Assembly (NCBI RefSeq): GCF_025753855.1
Contig: NZ_JAOWPT010000003.1
Coordinates: forward strand, 248,001 to 312,000
Direction: 5' to 3'
Source: Mesorhizobium sp. ZC-5
GTDB lineage: Bacteria; Pseudomonadota; Alphaproteobacteria; Rhizobiales; Rhizobiaceae
Length of the DNA: 64,000 nt
Position 1 is the first letter of the stretch, and every line of letters begins with the position of its first letter. The notes under the pieces were generated by a model. That model ran no database searches and was not told the DNA's origin. It worked only from the letters and a program-made list of their open reading frames with translations. Both the position numbers and the translations under genes were made by a program. Shown one piece after another: positions 29,364 to 37,909 of the stretch.

Positions 29364-29921
29364 GTGACCATACCGAACATGATCACAATTCTGCGTTTCC
29401 TGCTGGTACCGGGCGTGATTTTCGCCTTGCTGACGGACAAGATGGGCTGGGCGCTTGCCGGCTTTCTGGTCGCGGGCATTTCCGATGGCATCGACGGCTT
29501 CATTGCGCGCCAGTTCAACCAGCGCAGCGAGCTCGGCGCTTACATGGACCCCATGGCCGACAAGCTGTTGCTGGTCAGCGTGTTCCTGATGCTCGGCTTC
29601 ATGGGCGAACTGCCGTTGTGGCTGGTGATTGCGGCGGTTTCGCGCGATGCGCTGATCATCGGTGCGGTGCTGCTGTCGACGATCATGGGCAATCCGGTCG
29701 AGATGAAGCCGCTGTTCGTGTCGAAAGCCAACACCGCCATCCAGATCGTCTTAGCGGCGACAGTGCTCGCCGAACTGGCCTTTGCGACCCAGTTCGGCCA
29801 TGCCCGCGTCGCCCTCATATTCCTGTCCGGCCTCTTGACCGTCGCTTCCGCCGCGGCCTATCTCGTAGCCTGGTCGAGGCATATGAGCGGCAATGGCGAG
29901 AGCAAAAGTCCCCACGGATGA
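29364..29921 (+). CDS. CDP-alcohol phosphatidyltransferase family protein (second PgsA-like)
   Basis: 185 residues from GTG 29364, which follows a strong GGGGAGG. The start [17 protein letters not shown] matches PgsA-type N-termini. The signature is complete: [11 protein letters not shown], then [10 protein letters not shown]. About five membrane helices are visible. It is a paralogue of pgsA at 7397; the alcohol substrate is not known and could be glycerophosphate, cardiolipin-type phosphatidylglycerol or another alcohol. Its last 29 bases overlap the start of the AI-2E/PerM gene, so the two are coupled. Confidence 0.9.
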
Positions 29922-31054: not shown

Positions 31055-31756
31055 ATGGCCGAATTGCAAAAGCCGCGTCAATTGCCGCTCGACTTGCGGC
31101 ATTCCGCCGGCTTCTCGCGTGACGACCTGGTCGTTTCGCCGGCCAATGCCGATGCCGCTGCGCTGATCGATCGCTGGCCGGACTGGCCGGCACCTGTCGT
31201 TGTCCTTGCCGGTCCGGCGGGATCGGGTAAAACCCATCTCGGCGCCATCTGGCAGGAGATATCGTCAGCCACGGCGCATAATGCGGGCGCCATCGGCGAA
31301 AGCACGCTGAAGGCGGCGGAAGCCGGGCCGGTGCTCATCGACGACGCGGACGTGGCCGGGCTCGACGAACAGGGCCTGTTTCACCTGATCAACGCGGTGC
31401 GCGGCGCCGGCACGCACCTTCTATTGACGGCACGCCGTTTCCCGGCCGCCTGGGGCGTAAGACTTCCGGACCTAGCCTCGCGGCTCAAGGCGGCGACCAC
31501 GGTCGAGATCGGCGAGCCGGATGACCTGCTGCTGGCCGGCGTCATCACCAAACTCTTCGCCGACCGGCAGGTCGAGGTCGAACCGCATGTCGTGCAATAT
31601 CTGGTGCGCCGCATCGAACGGTCACTGTCGACCGCCATCCGCGTCGTCGACAGGCTTGATCGCGCGGGGCTCGAGCAAAAATCGCGCATCACGCGGGCGC
31701 TGGCGATCGAAGCCGTCAGCGCGCTGGACGAGGGGCAGCGCGAATTCGACCTGTAA
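31055..31756 (+). CDS. hdaA: DnaA regulatory inactivator, Hda type
   Basis: 233 residues. A beta-clamp-binding motif QLPLDL (residues 9-14) is followed by a AAA+ domain with Walker A AGPAGSGKTHL and sensor-like segment LLTARRFPAAWGVRLPDLASR. It lacks the DnaA DNA-binding domain. HdaA, loaded on the clamp, promotes ATP hydrolysis by DnaA and limits re-initiation. The 4-bp gap places it in an operon with the AI-2E/PerM gene. In many Rhizobiales ppk follows hdaA directly; here ppk lies about 22 kb away. Confidence 0.92.
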   Translation: MAELQKPRQLPLDLRHSAGFSRDDLVVSPANADAAALIDRWPDWPAPVVVLAGPAGSGKTHLGAIWQEISSATAHNAGAIGESTLKAAEAGPVLIDDADVAGLDEQGLFHLINAVRGAGTHLLLTARRFPAAWGVRLPDLASRLKAATTVEIGEPDDLLLAGVITKLFADRQVEVEPHVVQYLVRRIERSLSTAIRVVDRLDRAGLEQKSRITRALAIEAVSALDEGQREFDL

Positions 31757-31788
31757 TCTGCAATCTCAATCGCGCGGCCCGTCCAGAG

Positions 31789-32070
31789 TTACGACGATAG
31801 CCGCAGGTAGGCGGCTTTTGCTGCGAGAAGCACTGCCAGTATGGTGAGGTTGGAGAACAGGCCGACCAGAATGTGCTGGAAAACATCGGCACCCGCGCTG
31901 CTGCCAATGGTGGTCGGGATGAGCACCGCGACGAACACCAGGCCGAGCGCGATCGGTATCCACCGGTTCAGCGTTGCCTGGGTGTTGGCGGCGGTAAACA
32001 GAAGCGCGACCAGCAGTCCGACGCGAAACGGGTCGACCAACTGCGCGAGATAGATATCGACAAAAGACAA
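31789..32070 (-). CDS. Small integral membrane protein of unknown function
   Basis: 93 residues from TTG 32070, which has GGGGGAG six bases upstream; a TTG at 32085 is also open. Three hydrophobic segments are visible: VGLLVALLFTAANT, WIPIALGLVFVAVLIPTTI and LVGLFSNLTILAVLLAAKAAY. No known motif. It lies downstream of the TetR gene on the same strand and could be coexpressed with it. I do not recognise the family. Confidence 0.6.
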   Translation of the reverse strand: MSFVDIYLAQLVDPFRVGLLVALLFTAANTQATLNRWIPIALGLVFVAVLIPTTIGSSAGADVFQHILVGLFSNLTILAVLLAAKAAYLRLSS

Positions 32071-32157
32071 GGCTTGCTCCCCCAAAGCGGTTCCGCATTG
32101 TGCAGGTCCGACGCCACCTGTCGAGAGCGCGGTGAACGAAAGCCGCCCTCGAATGGC

Positions 32158-32814
32158 TTAGCGATCGGGGCCTGGCGGCTCCTCGGAAATCTTTGCCGTT
32201 GGCGCTTCGCGCGACCTGATCCCATCGCAGAACGCTTCGACGATGAATTTGATCTGCCCTGAAATCTCTTCCGGTGGGACGGCGACGAAACGGCGCTGCA
32301 GCCCGAGGCCGACGATCCCGTGAACCGCCGAGAACAGCGACTTCGCCAGAAGGACGCGGCGCTCGTCGCTCTCGTTGGGGAACAGCAGCCTCAGCGGCTT
32401 CACGATGTGGCCGATCAGGCGGACATGTTCGTTGATCTGCCATTGCGGCAATTCCTTCGTCGAGCCGAGACCGACTTCGAAGATCGCCGACCAGAGTTTC
32501 TGGTTGGCGAGAACGAATTGGAAATAGGTCTGCCCGAGCAGCGATAATGCGGCCTTGGGATCGTTGGCTTTCGCTGCGGCGAATGCCGTGGCAACGGCTG
32601 CCTCCAGCCTTGCGACCGTTCGCGAATTCACTTCGGCAACGAGCGCATCCATGTCCGGAAAGATCGTGTAGATCGCGCCCAGCGCGCAACCTGCTTCACG
32701 CGCGAGTTCGCGTGCCGTCAGTGCGGGATAGCCGTTTGCCGCGATTGATCGCTCGGCGATCTCCACGAGCGTGACACGCAGTGCGGCCCGCCGCTCTTCT
32801 GTTTTTGATGCCAA
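32158..32814 (-). CDS. TetR family regulator, divergent from the lipid cluster
   Basis: 218 residues from TTG 32814, the only start that keeps the whole helix-turn-helix (TLVEIAERSIAANGYPALTA, then REAGCALGAIYTIFPDMDAL). The C-terminal part resembles the TetR_C_33/WHG domain, with segments YFQFVLANQKLWSAIFEVG and SAVHGIVGLGL. No Shine-Dalgarno is obvious. Two near-identical palindromes lie between this gene and the divergent lipid operon, so it probably represses that operon and itself. Confidence 0.9.
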   Translation of the reverse strand: MASKTEERRAALRVTLVEIAERSIAANGYPALTARELAREAGCALGAIYTIFPDMDALVAEVNSRTVARLEAAVATAFAAAKANDPKAALSLLGQTYFQFVLANQKLWSAIFEVGLGSTKELPQWQINEHVRLIGHIVKPLRLLFPNESDERRVLLAKSLFSAVHGIVGLGLQRRFVAVPPEEISGQIKFIVEAFCDGIRSREAPTAKISEEPPGPDR

Positions 32815-32844
32815 GGCAGGGATTCCAGCTTTCTATGCCACAAT

Positions 32845-32859
32845 TTGAACATTGTTCAC
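32845..32859. promoter_or_regulatory. TetR operator, copy A
   Basis: TTGAACATTGTTCAC contains the inverted repeat TGAAC-...-GTTCA. A second copy lies 23 bp further on, a little over two helical turns, so two dimers could bind the same face. Confidence 0.7.
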
Positions 32860-32867
32860 GGAAATTA

Positions 32868-32882
32868 TTGAACAGCGTTCAC
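32868..32882. promoter_or_regulatory. TetR operator, copy B
   Basis: TTGAACAGCGTTCAC; identical to copy A at 13 of 15 positions, the two differences lying in the centre. It is 68 bp upstream of the first lipid gene's ATG. Confidence 0.7.
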
Positions 32883-32949
32883 GAACTTAGGCACGATGTG
32901 GCGCGCAGTCGTCCGATGTCAAGGGGCGAATGGACGAATGGGGGATGGC

Positions 32950-33564
32950 ATGACAACGCTTTACGCGCTCAAACCAGGATTCCAGAGGAGGCTGCGTCCT
33001 ATTTGCAGGGGACTTGCGGCATCCGGCGTGACGGCAAACCAGGTGACCATCGCAGGCGCCGTCATCTCGGTCTCAACCGGCATAACGCTTTCATGGTGGT
33101 CGGCACATCCCGCGATCTTCTGGCTGTTGCCGCTGGTTCTTCTCGTCCGCATGGCGCTGAACGCACTTGACGGAATGCTGGCGCGCGAGTTCGGGCAGGC
33201 CTCCAAGCTCGGCGCCTATCTGAACGAGCTTGCCGATGTGGTTTCCGATACCGCGCTGATCCTGCCTTTCGTTTTTGTCGCTCCTTTCGGCATCTGGGGC
33301 GTGATGGCCTTCGCGATTACCGCGATCCTTGCCGAACTCGCCGGCGTGCTGGGGCAGGCGACCGGTGGCATCCGGGCTTATGACGGACCGTTCGGCAAGA
33401 GCGACCGGGCACTCGCATTGGCGCTTCTCGCGGCCATCGTCGCGTCGGGTATCTCTCTTCCAGTGGCGCCGGAGTGGCTTTTCCCAGCCATGGCGCTGCT
33501 TGCGCTTGTCACCATGGTGAACCGGGTGCGTTCCGGCCTGCGCCCCTCGGCGACCAACCCGTAA
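32950..33564 (+). CDS. CDP-alcohol phosphatidyltransferase, YnbA-like
   Basis: 204 residues from ATG 32950 (GGGGG spaced 5 bp upstream); ATG 32938 is an alternative. Five or six membrane helices. The CDP-alcohol signature is present but altered: residues 71-79 read N-A-L-D-G-M-L-A-R and 88-96 read G-A-Y-L-N-E-L-A-D, so Asn replaces the first and third of the four usual aspartates. From memory E. coli YnbA has the same two Asn positions and a similar GPFGKSDRAL segment, so this looks like a YnbA subfamily trait. The product alcohol is unknown. First gene of a four-gene lipid operon. Confidence 0.85.
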   Translation: MTTLYALKPGFQRRLRPICRGLAASGVTANQVTIAGAVISVSTGITLSWWSAHPAIFWLLPLVLLVRMALNALDGMLAREFGQASKLGAYLNELADVVSDTALILPFVFVAPFGIWGVMAFAITAILAELAGVLGQATGGIRAYDGPFGKSDRALALALLAAIVASGISLPVAPEWLFPAMALLALVTMVNRVRSGLRPSATNP

Positions 33565-33621
33565 CCGTCAGTCAACGCCAGTCAGCATCGCTGCATTGCA
33601 CCGAAACCAGGGAACAAAAAA

Positions 33622-35418
33622 ATGCTCAACGTCGCTCCTGAAACGCTCATTGTTCGAAGCGAGATGCCGCTGAAGGCGCGCCCGGTCGAGGAACACACAT
33701 TCGCCAGCCATGACGGGACCGAACTTTTCTATCGCAAGTGGCCGGCCCTCACCGGGAAAGCCAAGGGTGCCATTCTCCTCTTCCACCGCGGCCACGAACA
33801 TGGCGGCCGCATGGCGCACATTCCGGACGAACTTGGGCTCGACGGCTTCGCCTTTTATGCCTGGGATGCGCGCAGCCACGGCCGGTCGCCGGGGCTGAGA
33901 GGCTATTCTGCTTCCTTCTCTGCGTCGGTGCGTGACGTCGACCGTTTCGTCAAACATGTGCAGGAAATCGACGGCTTTGCCATCGAAGACATCGCGGTCG
34001 TCGCCCAGTCGGTGGGCGCGGTACTGGCCGCGACATGGGTCCATGACTATGCGCCCAAAATCCGCGCGCTCGTGCTTGCCGCGCCGGCATTCGACGTGCG
34101 GCTCTATGTGCCTTTCGCCAGGGCGGGCATTAGTCTGTGGCAAAAGCTCAAGGGAACGTTCTTCGTCAATTCCTACGTCAAGGCACGCTTCCTGACGCAC
34201 GATGCGAGGCGCATCGCTTCCTTCGAAGCCGATCCGCTGATCACGAGGCCGATCGCTTCCAACATCCTGCTCGAGCTTTACGAGCAGGCGTCGCGTGTCG
34301 TGAAGGATGCGCGCGCCATCACCGTTCCGACCCAGTTGCTGATCTCCGGCAGCGATTTCGTCGTCCGCCAGGAACCGCAGCACGCGTTCTTCGTCAATCT
34401 CGGCAGTGCGATCAAGGAACGCCGTGTGCTGCCGGGTTTTTATCACGACACGCTGGGCGAAAAGGACCGCGCCCAGGCGTTCGGGCTGATACGCGGCTTC
34501 CTTGATGCCCGCTTCGCACGGCCTGCCGCGCCCGTCGATCTGCTGCAGGCCGACAAGGCGGGCCATACGCGTGACGAGAGCGACCATCTGGCGACGCCGT
34601 TGGCGCGGTTTTCCCCGGCAGGCCTTTATTGGGCGATGAACCGCCTTTCGATCAGGATCGCCGCGCGGTTTTCGGATGGCATAGCCACCGGCGTTGCGAC
34701 CGGTTTCGATTCCGGCTCGACGCTGGACTATGTCTACAGGAACGAGGAAAAGGGTTTCGGCCCCCTCGGGCGGCTGATCGACCGGATGTTCCTGGAGGCC
34801 ATCGGCTGGCGCGGGATCCGCTGCCGGAAGCAGCATATCGAAGCTTCCATAGCCGATGCGCTATCCCGTTTGGCCGCTGAAAAGCAGCCGGCCGCCGTCC
34901 TCGACATTGCCGCCGGCCATGGCCGCTATGTGCTGGATGCGGTGGCGGCTGCCGGAAAACCCGCCAGCATCCGGCTGCAGGATTATTCGACGGCGAATGT
35001 CGAGGCTGGCCGCAAGGCAATCCGCGAGCGCGGTCTTGAAGGCCTTGCCTCGTTCCATCTTGGCGATGCCTTCGATGGCGATGCGATTGCGGCGATCGAG
35101 CCAAGGCCCAACCTGGCGATCGTTTCGGGGCTCTACGAACTCTTCTCCGACAACACATTGGTCGCGCGTTCGCTCGACGGGCTTGCGCGCGCCATGCCGC
35201 GCGGAGGGCTGCTGATCTACACGAACCAGCCCTGGCATCCGCAACTCGAAATGATCGCCCGCAGCCTGACCTCGCATCGGGGCGGCAATGCCTGGGTGAT
35301 GCGGCGGCGGACGCAGGGCGAGATGGACCAGCTCGTCGAGGCTGCAGGCTTTCGCAAGATCGACCAGCGGATCGACGAGTGGGGCATCTTCACCGTCTCG
35401 CTGGCGGAGAGGGTCTGA
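33622..35418 (+). CDS. Alpha/beta hydrolase-SAM methyltransferase fusion, YnbC-like
   Basis: 598 residues. Residues 25-300 are a monoacylglycerol-lipase-like hydrolase: HRGHEHGGR, nucleophile S130 (VVAQSVGAV), acid D245 (SGSDFV), base H275 (FYHDTLGEKDR). Residues about 330-400 are a linker. Residues 415-598 are a class I SAM methyltransferase with motif I VLDIAAGHGRY (426-436). E. coli YnbC (about 585 residues) has the same two-domain plan. One chain could remove an acyl group and methylate the head group of a lipid. The gene starts 57 bp after the CDP-alcohol gene and ends 2 bp before the acyltransferase. Confidence 0.87.
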   Translation: MLNVAPETLIVRSEMPLKARPVEEHTFASHDGTELFYRKWPALTGKAKGAILLFHRGHEHGGRMAHIPDELGLDGFAFYAWDARSHGRSPGLRGYSASFSASVRDVDRFVKHVQEIDGFAIEDIAVVAQSVGAVLAATWVHDYAPKIRALVLAAPAFDVRLYVPFARAGISLWQKLKGTFFVNSYVKARFLTHDARRIASFEADPLITRPIASNILLELYEQASRVVKDARAITVPTQLLISGSDFVVRQEPQHAFFVNLGSAIKERRVLPGFYHDTLGEKDRAQAFGLIRGFLDARFARPAAPVDLLQADKAGHTRDESDHLATPLARFSPAGLYWAMNRLSIRIAARFSDGIATGVATGFDSGSTLDYVYRNEEKGFGPLGRLIDRMFLEAIGWRGIRCRKQHIEASIADALSRLAAEKQPAAVLDIAAGHGRYVLDAVAAAGKPASIRLQDYSTANVEAGRKAIRERGLEGLASFHLGDAFDGDAIAAIEPRPNLAIVSGLYELFSDNTLVARSLDGLARAMPRGGLLIYTNQPWHPQLEMIARSLTSHRGGNAWVMRRRTQGEMDQLVEAAGFRKIDQRIDEWGIFTVSLAERV

Positions 35419-35420
35419 CA

Positions 35421-36119
35421 GTGGCAATCGTCAGGGAAGACACGCGCAGCCAGGCATGGTGGCTATCGATCGATCTCAAGCCCGTCCTGCGTTCACTGAC
35501 CGCTTCGGCACTTGCCATGCTGGCGCGGCTGATCACCGGTGTGCGTCCGATCTGGCAAGGCTGCCAGCCCTCGCGGAAGCAGCGCATCTATTTCGCCAAC
35601 CATGGCAGCCATGTCGATTTCATCCTCCTGTCGTCATGCCTGCCGCCCGACCAGCGCGCGAAAACGCGCGGGGTCGCGGCGGCCGATTATTGGGGCAGGA
35701 CGCGATTTCGCCGGCTGATCTCCGAGGTGCTGCTCGGCGCCGTTCTCGTCGAGCGCAACTGGGTCGAGCGAAAGGCCGATCCTCTTGCCGTGCTGATCGA
35801 GGCGCTGGACCGGGGCGATACGCTGATCATGTTTCCCGAAGGCACCCGCAATATGGGCGAGGAACCGCTGCTGCGCTTCCGCAGCGGGCTTTATAGCCTC
35901 GCCACCGCAAGACCGGATGTCGAACTGATCCCTTGCTGGCTGGAGAACATGTCGCGTGTCCTGCCGAAGGGCGAGTTCCTGCCCGTGCCGCTGCTTTGCC
36001 GCGCCATCTTCGGCGCGCCCGTCATCCCCAGCCCTGGCGAGGAGAAATATGCATTCCTTGCCCGCGCCCGTGGCGCACTGCTTGCGCTCGATCCGAAATC
36101 CAAGGGAGAGAAATCTTGA
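35421..36119 (+). CDS. Lysophospholipid acyltransferase (PlsC-like)
   Basis: 232 residues from GTG 35421, with GGAGAGGG seven bases upstream and 2 bp after the fusion gene. Acyltransferase block I is NHGSHVDF (H61, D66; H-x4-D) and block III is FPEGTRN (138-144). A hydrophobic N-terminal segment (LTASALAMLARLITG) would dock it on the inner membrane. It would acylate lysophosphatidic acid or a related lipid. This gene is not part of E. coli ynbABCD, so the operon here has an added acyl step. Its stop overlaps the cytidylyltransferase start. Confidence 0.88.
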   Translation: MAIVREDTRSQAWWLSIDLKPVLRSLTASALAMLARLITGVRPIWQGCQPSRKQRIYFANHGSHVDFILLSSCLPPDQRAKTRGVAAADYWGRTRFRRLISEVLLGAVLVERNWVERKADPLAVLIEALDRGDTLIMFPEGTRNMGEEPLLRFRSGLYSLATARPDVELIPCWLENMSRVLPKGEFLPVPLLCRAIFGAPVIPSPGEEKYAFLARARGALLALDPKSKGEKS

Positions 36120-37048
36120 TCCGCGAAACGGCACTGCTGATGGGCGGCCTGATCGGCGTTCTGTCGTCGGCGAGCGCGGTGGCCGCCATTCTGTCTTTCC
36201 GCGCCGGCGCGACGCTCAGCCCGGCGCTTCAGAACCTCAACCAGCGCATCAAGGCGTGGTGGCTGATGGTGCTGCTGATCTCCGGCGCATTCATCTGCGG
36301 CAAGGCCGGCGTGATCGTTCTCTTCGCCTTCGTCTCGTTCGCGGCGCTGCGCGAATATGTGACGCTGACCTATTCGCGACGAAGCGATCACCGGGTGCTG
36401 CTCGGCATGTTCGGCATCGTCATTCCCGTGCAGTATTTGCTCGTCTGGAGCGAATGGTACGGGCTGTTTTCGGTGTTCATCCCGGTCTACTGCTTTCTGG
36501 TGATGCCGGCGCTGACAGCGCTGCGCGGCGACACCGAGCGCTTTCTCGATCGCGTCGCCGAACAGCAATGGGGCATCATGCTTGCGGTCTATTGCATCAG
36601 CCACGTGCCGGCGCTGATGACGCTGCCGATCCCCGGCTTCGAAGGCCGCGGCCTGCTGCTCATCGCCTTCCTCATCATTACCGTGCAGGGCAGCGACGTG
36701 CTGCAGTACATCTTCGGCAAGTTGATGGGCAGGCATGTGATATCGGCGAGCGTGTCGCCGTCGAAGACCTGGGAAGGCCTGGTCGGGGGCATGGCCAGCG
36801 CCACCCTGCTTGGCGGCATGCTGCATTGGCTGACGCCGTTTTCCGCGCTGGAGGCGGCGGCCATCGCCGCGCTCAGCTGCCTGATGGGTTTTTTCGGCGG
36901 GCTCGTCGCCTCGGCGATAAAGCGGGATCGCGGCGTCAAGGATTGGGGCAACATGATCGAGGGCCATGGCGGCATGCTCGACCGGGCCGACAGCCTGATC
37001 TTCGCGGCGCCGGTGTTTTTCCATCTGGTCCGCTATCTCTGGACCTGA
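36116..37048 (+). CDS. Phosphatidate cytidylyltransferase (CdsA family, YnbB-like)
   Basis: 310 residues from TTG 36116, whose TTGA overlaps the previous stop; AGGGAGAG stands upstream. About eight membrane helices. The CdsA signature is complete: SPSKTWEG (214-221) and S-A-I-K-R-D-R-G-V-K-D (266-276) followed by HGGMLDRAD (284-292). It makes CDP-diacylglycerol from phosphatidate and CTP. A housekeeping cdsA is expected elsewhere, so this is a second copy dedicated to the operon. Last gene of the cluster; it is convergent with the TauE gene. Confidence 0.9.
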   Translation: MIRETALLMGGLIGVLSSASAVAAILSFRAGATLSPALQNLNQRIKAWWLMVLLISGAFICGKAGVIVLFAFVSFAALREYVTLTYSRRSDHRVLLGMFGIVIPVQYLLVWSEWYGLFSVFIPVYCFLVMPALTALRGDTERFLDRVAEQQWGIMLAVYCISHVPALMTLPIPGFEGRGLLLIAFLIITVQGSDVLQYIFGKLMGRHVISASVSPSKTWEGLVGGMASATLLGGMLHWLTPFSALEAAAIAALSCLMGFFGGLVASAIKRDRGVKDWGNMIEGHGGMLDRADSLIFAAPVFFHLVRYLWT

Positions 37049-37078
37049 TGTTCGATGGGACGCATCAGGCGGTCGAGG

Positions 37079-37909
37079 CTAGCTCACGATGTCCCATATG
37101 AACCGGGCGCACACCAGAAGCAGAAATATCCCGAATGACGTTTCGAGCGTCCGGCGCGGCAGCGCATGCGCAAGCGCGACGCCGAGGCGGGCGGTCAGAA
37201 GCGATGTCGGGATCGTCAGGGCAAAGGCGGCCAGCGATACGAAGCCGATCGCATCCGGAGGCAGGTCTGGGCGACCGTAGCCGGCGGCCATGTAGCCCAG
37301 TGTCCCCGGGATGGCGATAAGGACGCCGACGCCAGCGGCGGTAGACACCGCGCGATGGATCGGCTCGCCGTGCAATGTCATCACGAGGTTCGTCAAGGCC
37401 CCGCCGCCGATTCCCATCAGCGAGGAGGCAAGGCCGATCGCGGCGCCATAGAGGCGCATGATGCCTTTTGACGAGGGTTCCTCTCGCACCCGCCAGCCCT
37501 TTCCGCCGGTGATCAGTTTTGCCGCGTTCACCGTCGCGACGCCGATGAAGACCACTTGGAACACGACTGGATCGGCATAGCGCGCAATGACCGCGCCGAT
37601 CATCACGCCCGCCAGGATCGGCAGCGCCCAAAGATGCAGGAGCGCCAGATCCACCGTGCCCTTGGCATAATGAGCCCGCGCTGACATGATCGAGGTGGGT
37701 ACGATGACTGCGAGCGACGTTCCGACCGCGAGCGGCATCGCGACCTCGGGCTTGTATCCAAGAACGCCGAATATCTCGTAGAAGACAGGCACCGAGATGG
37801 CGCCGCCGCCGACGCCGAACAGGCCGGCGAGGAAGCCGGTCGCCGCCCCGGCCACCAGGAGTGCTGCGACCAGTGTCAGGAGCGTCTGGGGGTCGGCAAG
37901 TGCCTCCAA
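37079..37909 (-). CDS. TauE/SafE family permease
   Basis: 276 residues from TTG 37909, just after the stop of the upstream dehydrogenase; another TTG (37960) is open but overlaps that gene. Eight or so membrane helices in two halves. Each half has the family G-x-G-G-G motif: GLFGVGGGAISVPVFY and SLMGIGGGALTNLVM. The family exports sulfite, sulfoacetate or other organosulfonates, and some members move carboxylates. It ends the leftward FAH-HIBADH-TauE transcript, so it may export a by-product of that pathway. Confidence 0.88.
   Translation of the reverse strand: MEALADPQTLLTLVAALLVAGAATGFLAGLFGVGGGAISVPVFYEIFGVLGYKPEVAMPLAVGTSLAVIVPTSIMSARAHYAKGTVDLALLHLWALPILAGVMIGAVIARYADPVVFQVVFIGVATVNAAKLITGGKGWRVREEPSSKGIMRLYGAAIGLASSLMGIGGGALTNLVMTLHGEPIHRAVSTAAGVGVLIAIPGTLGYMAAGYGRPDLPPDAIGFVSLAAFALTIPTSLLTARLGVALAHALPRRTLETSFGIFLLLVCARFIWDIVS

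Follow-up and report, generated by a model that had tools for sequence, protein, structure and literature searches.

A compact TetR-linked ynb cluster of Mesorhizobium sp. ZC-5 as a candidate membrane-stress lipid module

Which lipid do the four packed enzyme genes of a ynb-type cluster in Mesorhizobium sp. ZC-5 make, and when does the TetR gene beside them allow it? The cluster lies in a window of 64,000 nucleotides (the whole stretch of DNA analysed; positions 248,001 to 312,000 of contig NZ_JAOWPT010000003.1, assembly GCF_025753855.1), within a genome of 6.34 Mb in 68 contigs. Our answer, to which we grant a chance just short of even, is that this is a compact TetR-controlled lipid module that may act as a membrane-stress-induced lipid pathway. 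Its features, numbered from the first letter of the window, are the following.

32158..32814, minus strand: TetR-family repressor (TTG start), of a subfamily that adjoins PspA and LplT-Aas genes in relatives
32846..32858, strandless: operator-like palindrome, copy 1, TGAACATTGTTCA
32869..32881, strandless: operator-like palindrome, copy 2, TGAACAGCGTTCA, 23 bp from copy 1
32950..33564, plus strand: YnbA, CDP-alcohol phosphotransferase homologue, 204 amino acids, with Asn at motif positions 1 and 3 (N71, D74, N92, D96)
33622..35418, plus strand: YnbC, fusion of a monoacylglycerol-lipase-like hydrolase and a Methyltransf_20 (PF12147) methyltransferase, 598 amino acids
35421..36119, plus strand: PlsC-like acyltransferase (GTG start; NHxSHxD, EGTR)
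36116..37048, plus strand: CdsA/YnbB-like cytidylyltransferase (TTG start; intact SxxKRxxGxKD and GHGGxxDRxD)

Gene content and distribution

The open frames bear out the arrangement given in a preliminary description of this DNA, with ynbA, ynbC, plsC and cdsA separated by 57, 2 and -4 bp and tetR divergent on the minus strand. Pfam also places each enzyme in the family named there: YnbA in the CDP-alcohol phosphotransferase superfamily (PF01066 CDP-OH_P_transf, 39.7 bits, cut-off 22), YnbC in Hydrolase_4 (212.5 bits) and Methyltransf_20 (467.9 bits), the PlsC-like protein in Acyltransferase (60.2 bits) and the CdsA-like protein in CTP_transf_1 (220.1 bits), while the regulator matches TetR_N (37.4 bits) and TetR_C_33 (36.2 bits). 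Catalytic motifs are kept in YnbC, PlsC and CdsA. YnbC conserves S130, D245, H275 and the S-adenosylmethionine loop; the acyltransferase carries the HX4D and EGTR motifs that we take to mark PlsC-type enzymes, and the cytidylyltransferase is predicted to be of CdsA type from CTP_transf_1 together with SxxKR...GHGGxxDRxD, which we likewise take to be the CdsA signature. The nearest PDB matches of the YnbC hydrolase half are monoacylglycerol lipases, with a weak match to lysophospholipase L2 (33 bits), and those of its methyltransferase half are weak (best E 0.022). An odd base composition was considered and rejected, as the GC content of the cluster resembles that of its surroundings.

YnbA adjoins CdsA-like and hydrolase-methyltransferase genes, and identity to the E. 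coli proteins is 47% for YnbA (YnbA), 54% for YnbC (YnbC) and 38% for CdsA (YnbB), so that the proposed kinship with ynbABC as a conserved phospholipid-type cluster stands. In E. coli K-12 (ynbABCD, b1408-b1411), as in ZC-5, YnbA, the CdsA-like YnbB and the hydrolase-methyltransferase YnbC are encoded side by side and YnbA has the same Asn-for-Asp change. The K-12 locus includes ynbD (PAP2 plus dual-specificity phosphatase), lacks plsC and runs A-B-C-D, whereas ZC-5 has plsC, no ynbD, the order A-C-plsC-cdsA and a divergent TetR. In Mesorhizobium and Phyllobacterium, six-gene clusters (L028-L037, L039, L041-L045, L153, L155) hold the same four genes, with YnbA 57-65% identical to that of ZC-5, which is nested in their clade; unlike ZC-5 they have two further genes between ynbC and plsC, ynbD and a small hypothetical one, and among them only L043 has the TetR and palindromes.

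An alignment scan of named genomes with YnbA, using the peptide patterns NA[ILV]DGMLA and GP[MFL]GKSDRA, gave at least 582 relatives, of which we examined the 80 loci that best match ZC-5 YnbA, a non-random sample with several loci on short contigs. Among these, plsC and cdsA accompany ynbA in 68, ynbC in 64 and ynbD in 60, and 12 hold ynbA-plsC-cdsA alone with no YnbC found, at least one of them (L086) being cut by a contig end. Five Pasteurellaceae loci (L056, L058, L061, L071, L104) show this three-gene core, with neither ynbC nor ynbD found nearby. The preliminary description had treated the acyltransferase as an extra step added to ynbABC, a view that does not hold: since plsC is this constant a companion of ynbA, the acyltransferase is core and the ZC-5 cluster a reduced form. 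The acyltransferase gene is present on Citrobacter plasmid L023 (NZ_CP053574.1) with all six genes, and on E. coli plasmid L022 (NZ_CP045714.1), typed as conjugative, in a related set whose ynbD is a 73-amino-acid piece only. The six genes ynbA, ynbC, ynbD, the small hypothetical gene, plsC and cdsA are found on plasmids of Shinella and Rhizobium and, differently arranged, on one of Burkholderia. The gene set thus recurs in distant bacteria and is therefore not due to chance, and the conserved gene order expected in other Rhizobiales was found too, two further Rhizobiales genomes (G120 and G072) having the four genes in the same order without ynbD.

Quick trees, with SH-aLRT support only, place ZC-5 YnbA (95 rows) within a set of 27 rows, mostly from Mesorhizobium, Phyllobacterium and Rhizobiales/Rhizobiaceae (support 99), beside a Phyllobacterium-type group that has ynbD (support 85); ynbD presence requires seven changes on this tree. 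By sequence comparison, then, the ZC-5 cluster is a compact, reduced variant nested among six-gene clusters, without ynbD and the small gene. That YnbD is encoded elsewhere in the host genome was ruled out, as a search of that genome with profile A6 gave no match; the same profile, applied to 11 genomes, gave strong matches in 5, three of which had supplied rows to it and two of which (G082, G095) had not, and one weak match in G072 (23.9 bits). The spread of PF12147 is patchy: the order has 11 carriers among 150 genomes and the phylum 27 among 398, the host being counted in both. The cluster was not found behind hdaA in the six relatives fetched (0/6), which fits gain by transfer. The stretch behind hdaA (31756-37079) differs among those six and looks like a variable region; the names hdaA, perM, tauE and Aas are presumptive assignments of ours. 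Carriage by a virus was also considered, and the 11 pattern matches of one viral scan yielded no confirmed relative. Elsewhere, ynbC of Cardiobacterium hominis (L070, 10708-12450) is apparently in three pieces, a YnbC relative on Kosakonia plasmid L026 (7971-9599) ends a run of phosphopantetheine-binding protein, ketosynthase, MaoC-type protein and FabG genes, and another, in two frames on Moraxella plasmid L025 (7302-11664), adjoins a patatin-like phospholipase and a short-chain dehydrogenase.

The altered metal motif of YnbA

The metal motif of the superfamily, D1xxD2G1xxAR...G2xxxD3xxxD4, has four Asp (PMC6506517, in its available part). ZC-5 YnbA reads N71, D74, N92 and D96 instead, with Asn in first and third place and the fourth Asp, proposed to act as base, kept. 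The scan patterns partly select the first Asn and the GKSDR stretch in the rows of the 80 loci; the 14 rows found through ynbC or the ZC-5 stretch, for which no YnbA pattern was used, are exempt from this and all 14 have both Asn. Read from alignment columns, both are present in 95 of 95 YnbA rows, which include ZC-5 itself and near-copies, while 53 of 54 control loci have Asp at both positions (three of the 54 rows read by eye). At 29373-29921, 3 kb upstream of ynbA, the window encodes another CDP-alcohol phosphotransferase, and this one has all four of the usual Asp.

The model of YnbA has the six-helix fold of phosphatidylinositol-phosphate synthases (PIPS), and by sequence and model its nearest characterised kin are M. 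tuberculosis PgsA1 and archaetidylinositol-phosphate synthase, whose phosphate-site arginines R155 and R195 it conserves. It differs from them in the Asn at D1 and D3, in a Val at the position of R94, and in scores far below the family cut-offs: 51.3 of 170 bits for the NCBIfam equivalog NF045883 (phosphatidylinositol-phosphate synthase) and 75.3 of 180 bits for NF040950 (archaetidylinositol-phosphate synthase). According to the available part of PMC6506517, R94 of M. tuberculosis PIPS contacts the phosphate of the acceptor and is a conserved residue among the enzymes whose substrate is inositol phosphate. Below these cut-offs and without R94, YnbA was rejected as a phosphatidylinositol-phosphate synthase.

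The TetR regulator and its palindromes

Two TGAACNNNGTTCA palindromes stand 23 bp apart between tetR and ynbA. Shuffled windows held 0.02 copies on average and never two; the host genome has three exact copies, the third of which lies inside an open reading frame and was rejected as another regulatory target. Over the 80 ynb loci (1.51 Mb) we counted 12 copies, all just upstream of ynbA and confined to five loci, four with the TetR there and a fifth, L048, in which none was detected.

Within the order, 63 of 199 genomes encode TetR relatives. We surveyed 36 TetR loci, namely 28 of 30 TetR loci (L123, the ZC-5 stretch, and L148, a duplicate of L119, were left out) and eight ynb-linked ones including ZC-5, and found TGAACNNNGTTCA upstream of tetR in 31 of them, in one to four copies. 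The neighbours, assigned by tblastn in short loci with priority ynb over PspA over LplT, are PspA in 18, ynb in 8, LplT-Aas in 4, a type III polyketide synthase in 2 and others in 4. LplT-Aas was an additional match in five rows labelled otherwise. Pfam finds PspA in 7 of 10 neighbour proteins tested, and in 3 of 5 tested the best NCBIfam match is an LplT-Aas type fusion, below the family cut-off because these three proteins are cut. In the two polyketide synthase loci (L145, L149) the same TetR subfamily and palindrome adjoin a gene of the chalcone/stilbene synthase family. The regulators beside pspA or lplT-aas in the same order thus have the TetR subfamily and the palindromes in common with ZC-5, whose neighbour is the ynb cluster, and G148 carries TetR, a methyltransferase-only ynb cluster and an LplT-Aas type fusion gene in one run. 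The host genome itself gave no PspA match.

On the TetR tree, likewise a quick one, three further ynb-linked TetRs group with the ZC-5 protein (support 100), and next to this group stands a single TetR whose locus is linked to both PspA and LplT-Aas (support 90). The remaining four ynb-linked TetRs are placed elsewhere, so the coupling between TetR and ynb probably arose more than once. Control of the cluster by TetR, already supposed in the preliminary description, is strongly supported by the conservation of the operator-like palindromes. Terminator-like sites numbered 3, against 4.5 in shuffles. A TetR-PspA link was not found in the open-access literature searched, largely by listing, and TetR has no occurrence in the available part of the PSP survey PMC11237479.

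What the module may make

In the module as we picture it, the PlsC-like acyltransferase and the YnbB-like cytidylyltransferase, both dedicated, would prepare a CDP-activated lipid; YnbA would transfer the lipid phosphate to an acceptor, possibly itself phosphorylated; and YnbC would then remove an acyl group, methylate the product, or both. The divergent TetR would repress its own gene and the operon through the two TGAACNNNGTTCA operators until released by a membrane-derived signal such as damage, lysophospholipid or free acyl chains, a signal suggested by analogy with the genes beside its relatives. We infer repression itself, the ligand and each chemical step. In the stepwise chemistry proposed earlier (phosphatidate, CDP-diacylglycerol, attachment of an alcohol, de-acylation or methylation), activation is the best founded step, because E. 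coli YnbB yields CDP-diacylglycerol in vitro (PMC7018664, available part); the others are putative. Absent from the earlier account are the presence of ynbD in E. coli and its relatives, the replacement of Asp by Asn in YnbA, and the relationship of the TetR to regulators encoded next to PspA and LplT-Aas.

Several points weigh against this reading. The equivalent of R94 is Val (V97) in ZC-5 YnbA and in five aligned rows, with no basic residue after D4, which weakens the step with a phosphorylated acceptor, and ZC-5 is without a YnbD that could remove the acceptor phosphate. As E. coli YnbB makes CDP-diacylglycerol, no unusual lipid is needed up to that step, and the published E. coli lead, in the available part of PMC7018664, points to the glycolipid MPIase. 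The membrane-stress link, through PspA, is one of neighbourhood, and TetR ligands change easily. TetR was detected in only 4 of the 80 best loci, so this control is not general; 5 of the 36 TetR loci are without an upstream palindrome, and a promoter scan found no sigma-70-type promoter near the palindromes. A bolder version is doubtful: that YnbA is a separate CDP-alcohol phosphotransferase branch with a changed metal site, which with its own acyltransferase and cytidylyltransferase makes an undescribed phospholipid, here as a response to membrane damage under a PspA-type repressor in PspA's place.

It is unlikely that the cluster serves remodelling with no new head group, in which YnbC would deacylate damaged phospholipid, the PlsC-like enzyme re-acylate it, and CdsA and YnbA return phosphatidate to ordinary lipids. 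The lipase kinship of the YnbC hydrolase half speaks for it, as does the TetR subfamily's association with LplT-Aas, by NCBIfam name a lysophospholipid salvage system; yet the 12 loci with no YnbC found suggest that the core does without the hydrolase, and salvage needs no dedicated CDP-alcohol phosphotransferase.

We consider it quite improbable that the product is an MPIase-type glycolipid, for which YnbB would give CDP-diacylglycerol and YnbA join a sugar-1-phosphate, a phosphate nucleophile that the Asn changes would suit. A 2019 paper reportedly, going by its title, presents YnbB as MPIase backup enzyme. In the available parts of PMC6362211 and PMC7018664, YnbB overproduction in E. coli raises MPIase and, under CdsA depletion, restores it but not phospholipid levels, and the latter, a review, describes YnbB as the backup enzyme for MPIase. 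The two conserved PIPS phosphate-site arginines agree with this, but the fourth Asp is kept, the cluster has no glycosyltransferase, the acyltransferase and YnbC are left unexplained, and ynbB deletion brought no significant change in MPIase according to the available part of PMC6362211. The earlier statement that ynbABC has no settled function needs amending for YnbB, given this proposed role (PMC7018664, available part), and holds in print for ynbD: E. coli YnbD replaced neither phosphatidylglycerophosphate nor undecaprenyl-pyrophosphate phosphatases, and no function is ascribed to it in the available part of PMC7413402. The open-access literature searched, largely by listing, held nothing further on this cluster beyond the papers cited, and gave no paper for PF12147.

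The ordinary route from phosphatidate through CDP-diacylglycerol to a methylated phosphatidyl-alcohol, with an added acyltransferase and a TetR ligand unrelated to membrane stress, fits the enzyme families and the in vitro activity of E. coli YnbB (available part of PMC7018664) but has little probability, given an acyltransferase that is core and present also in the E. coli and Citrobacter plasmid clusters, an altered YnbA metal motif and TetR kin that adjoin membrane-stress genes.

The ynb module is widespread, with at least 582 YnbA relatives, yet poorly understood. The Asn-for-Asp motif offers an easy way to recognise true YnbA proteins from sequence. In ZC-5 the module comes with a repressor of its own, with likely operators and with a family of regulators found beside membrane-repair genes, which together offer a means of inducing the pathway and observing what it makes; the TetR kin beside membrane-damage genes suggest when the lipid is made.
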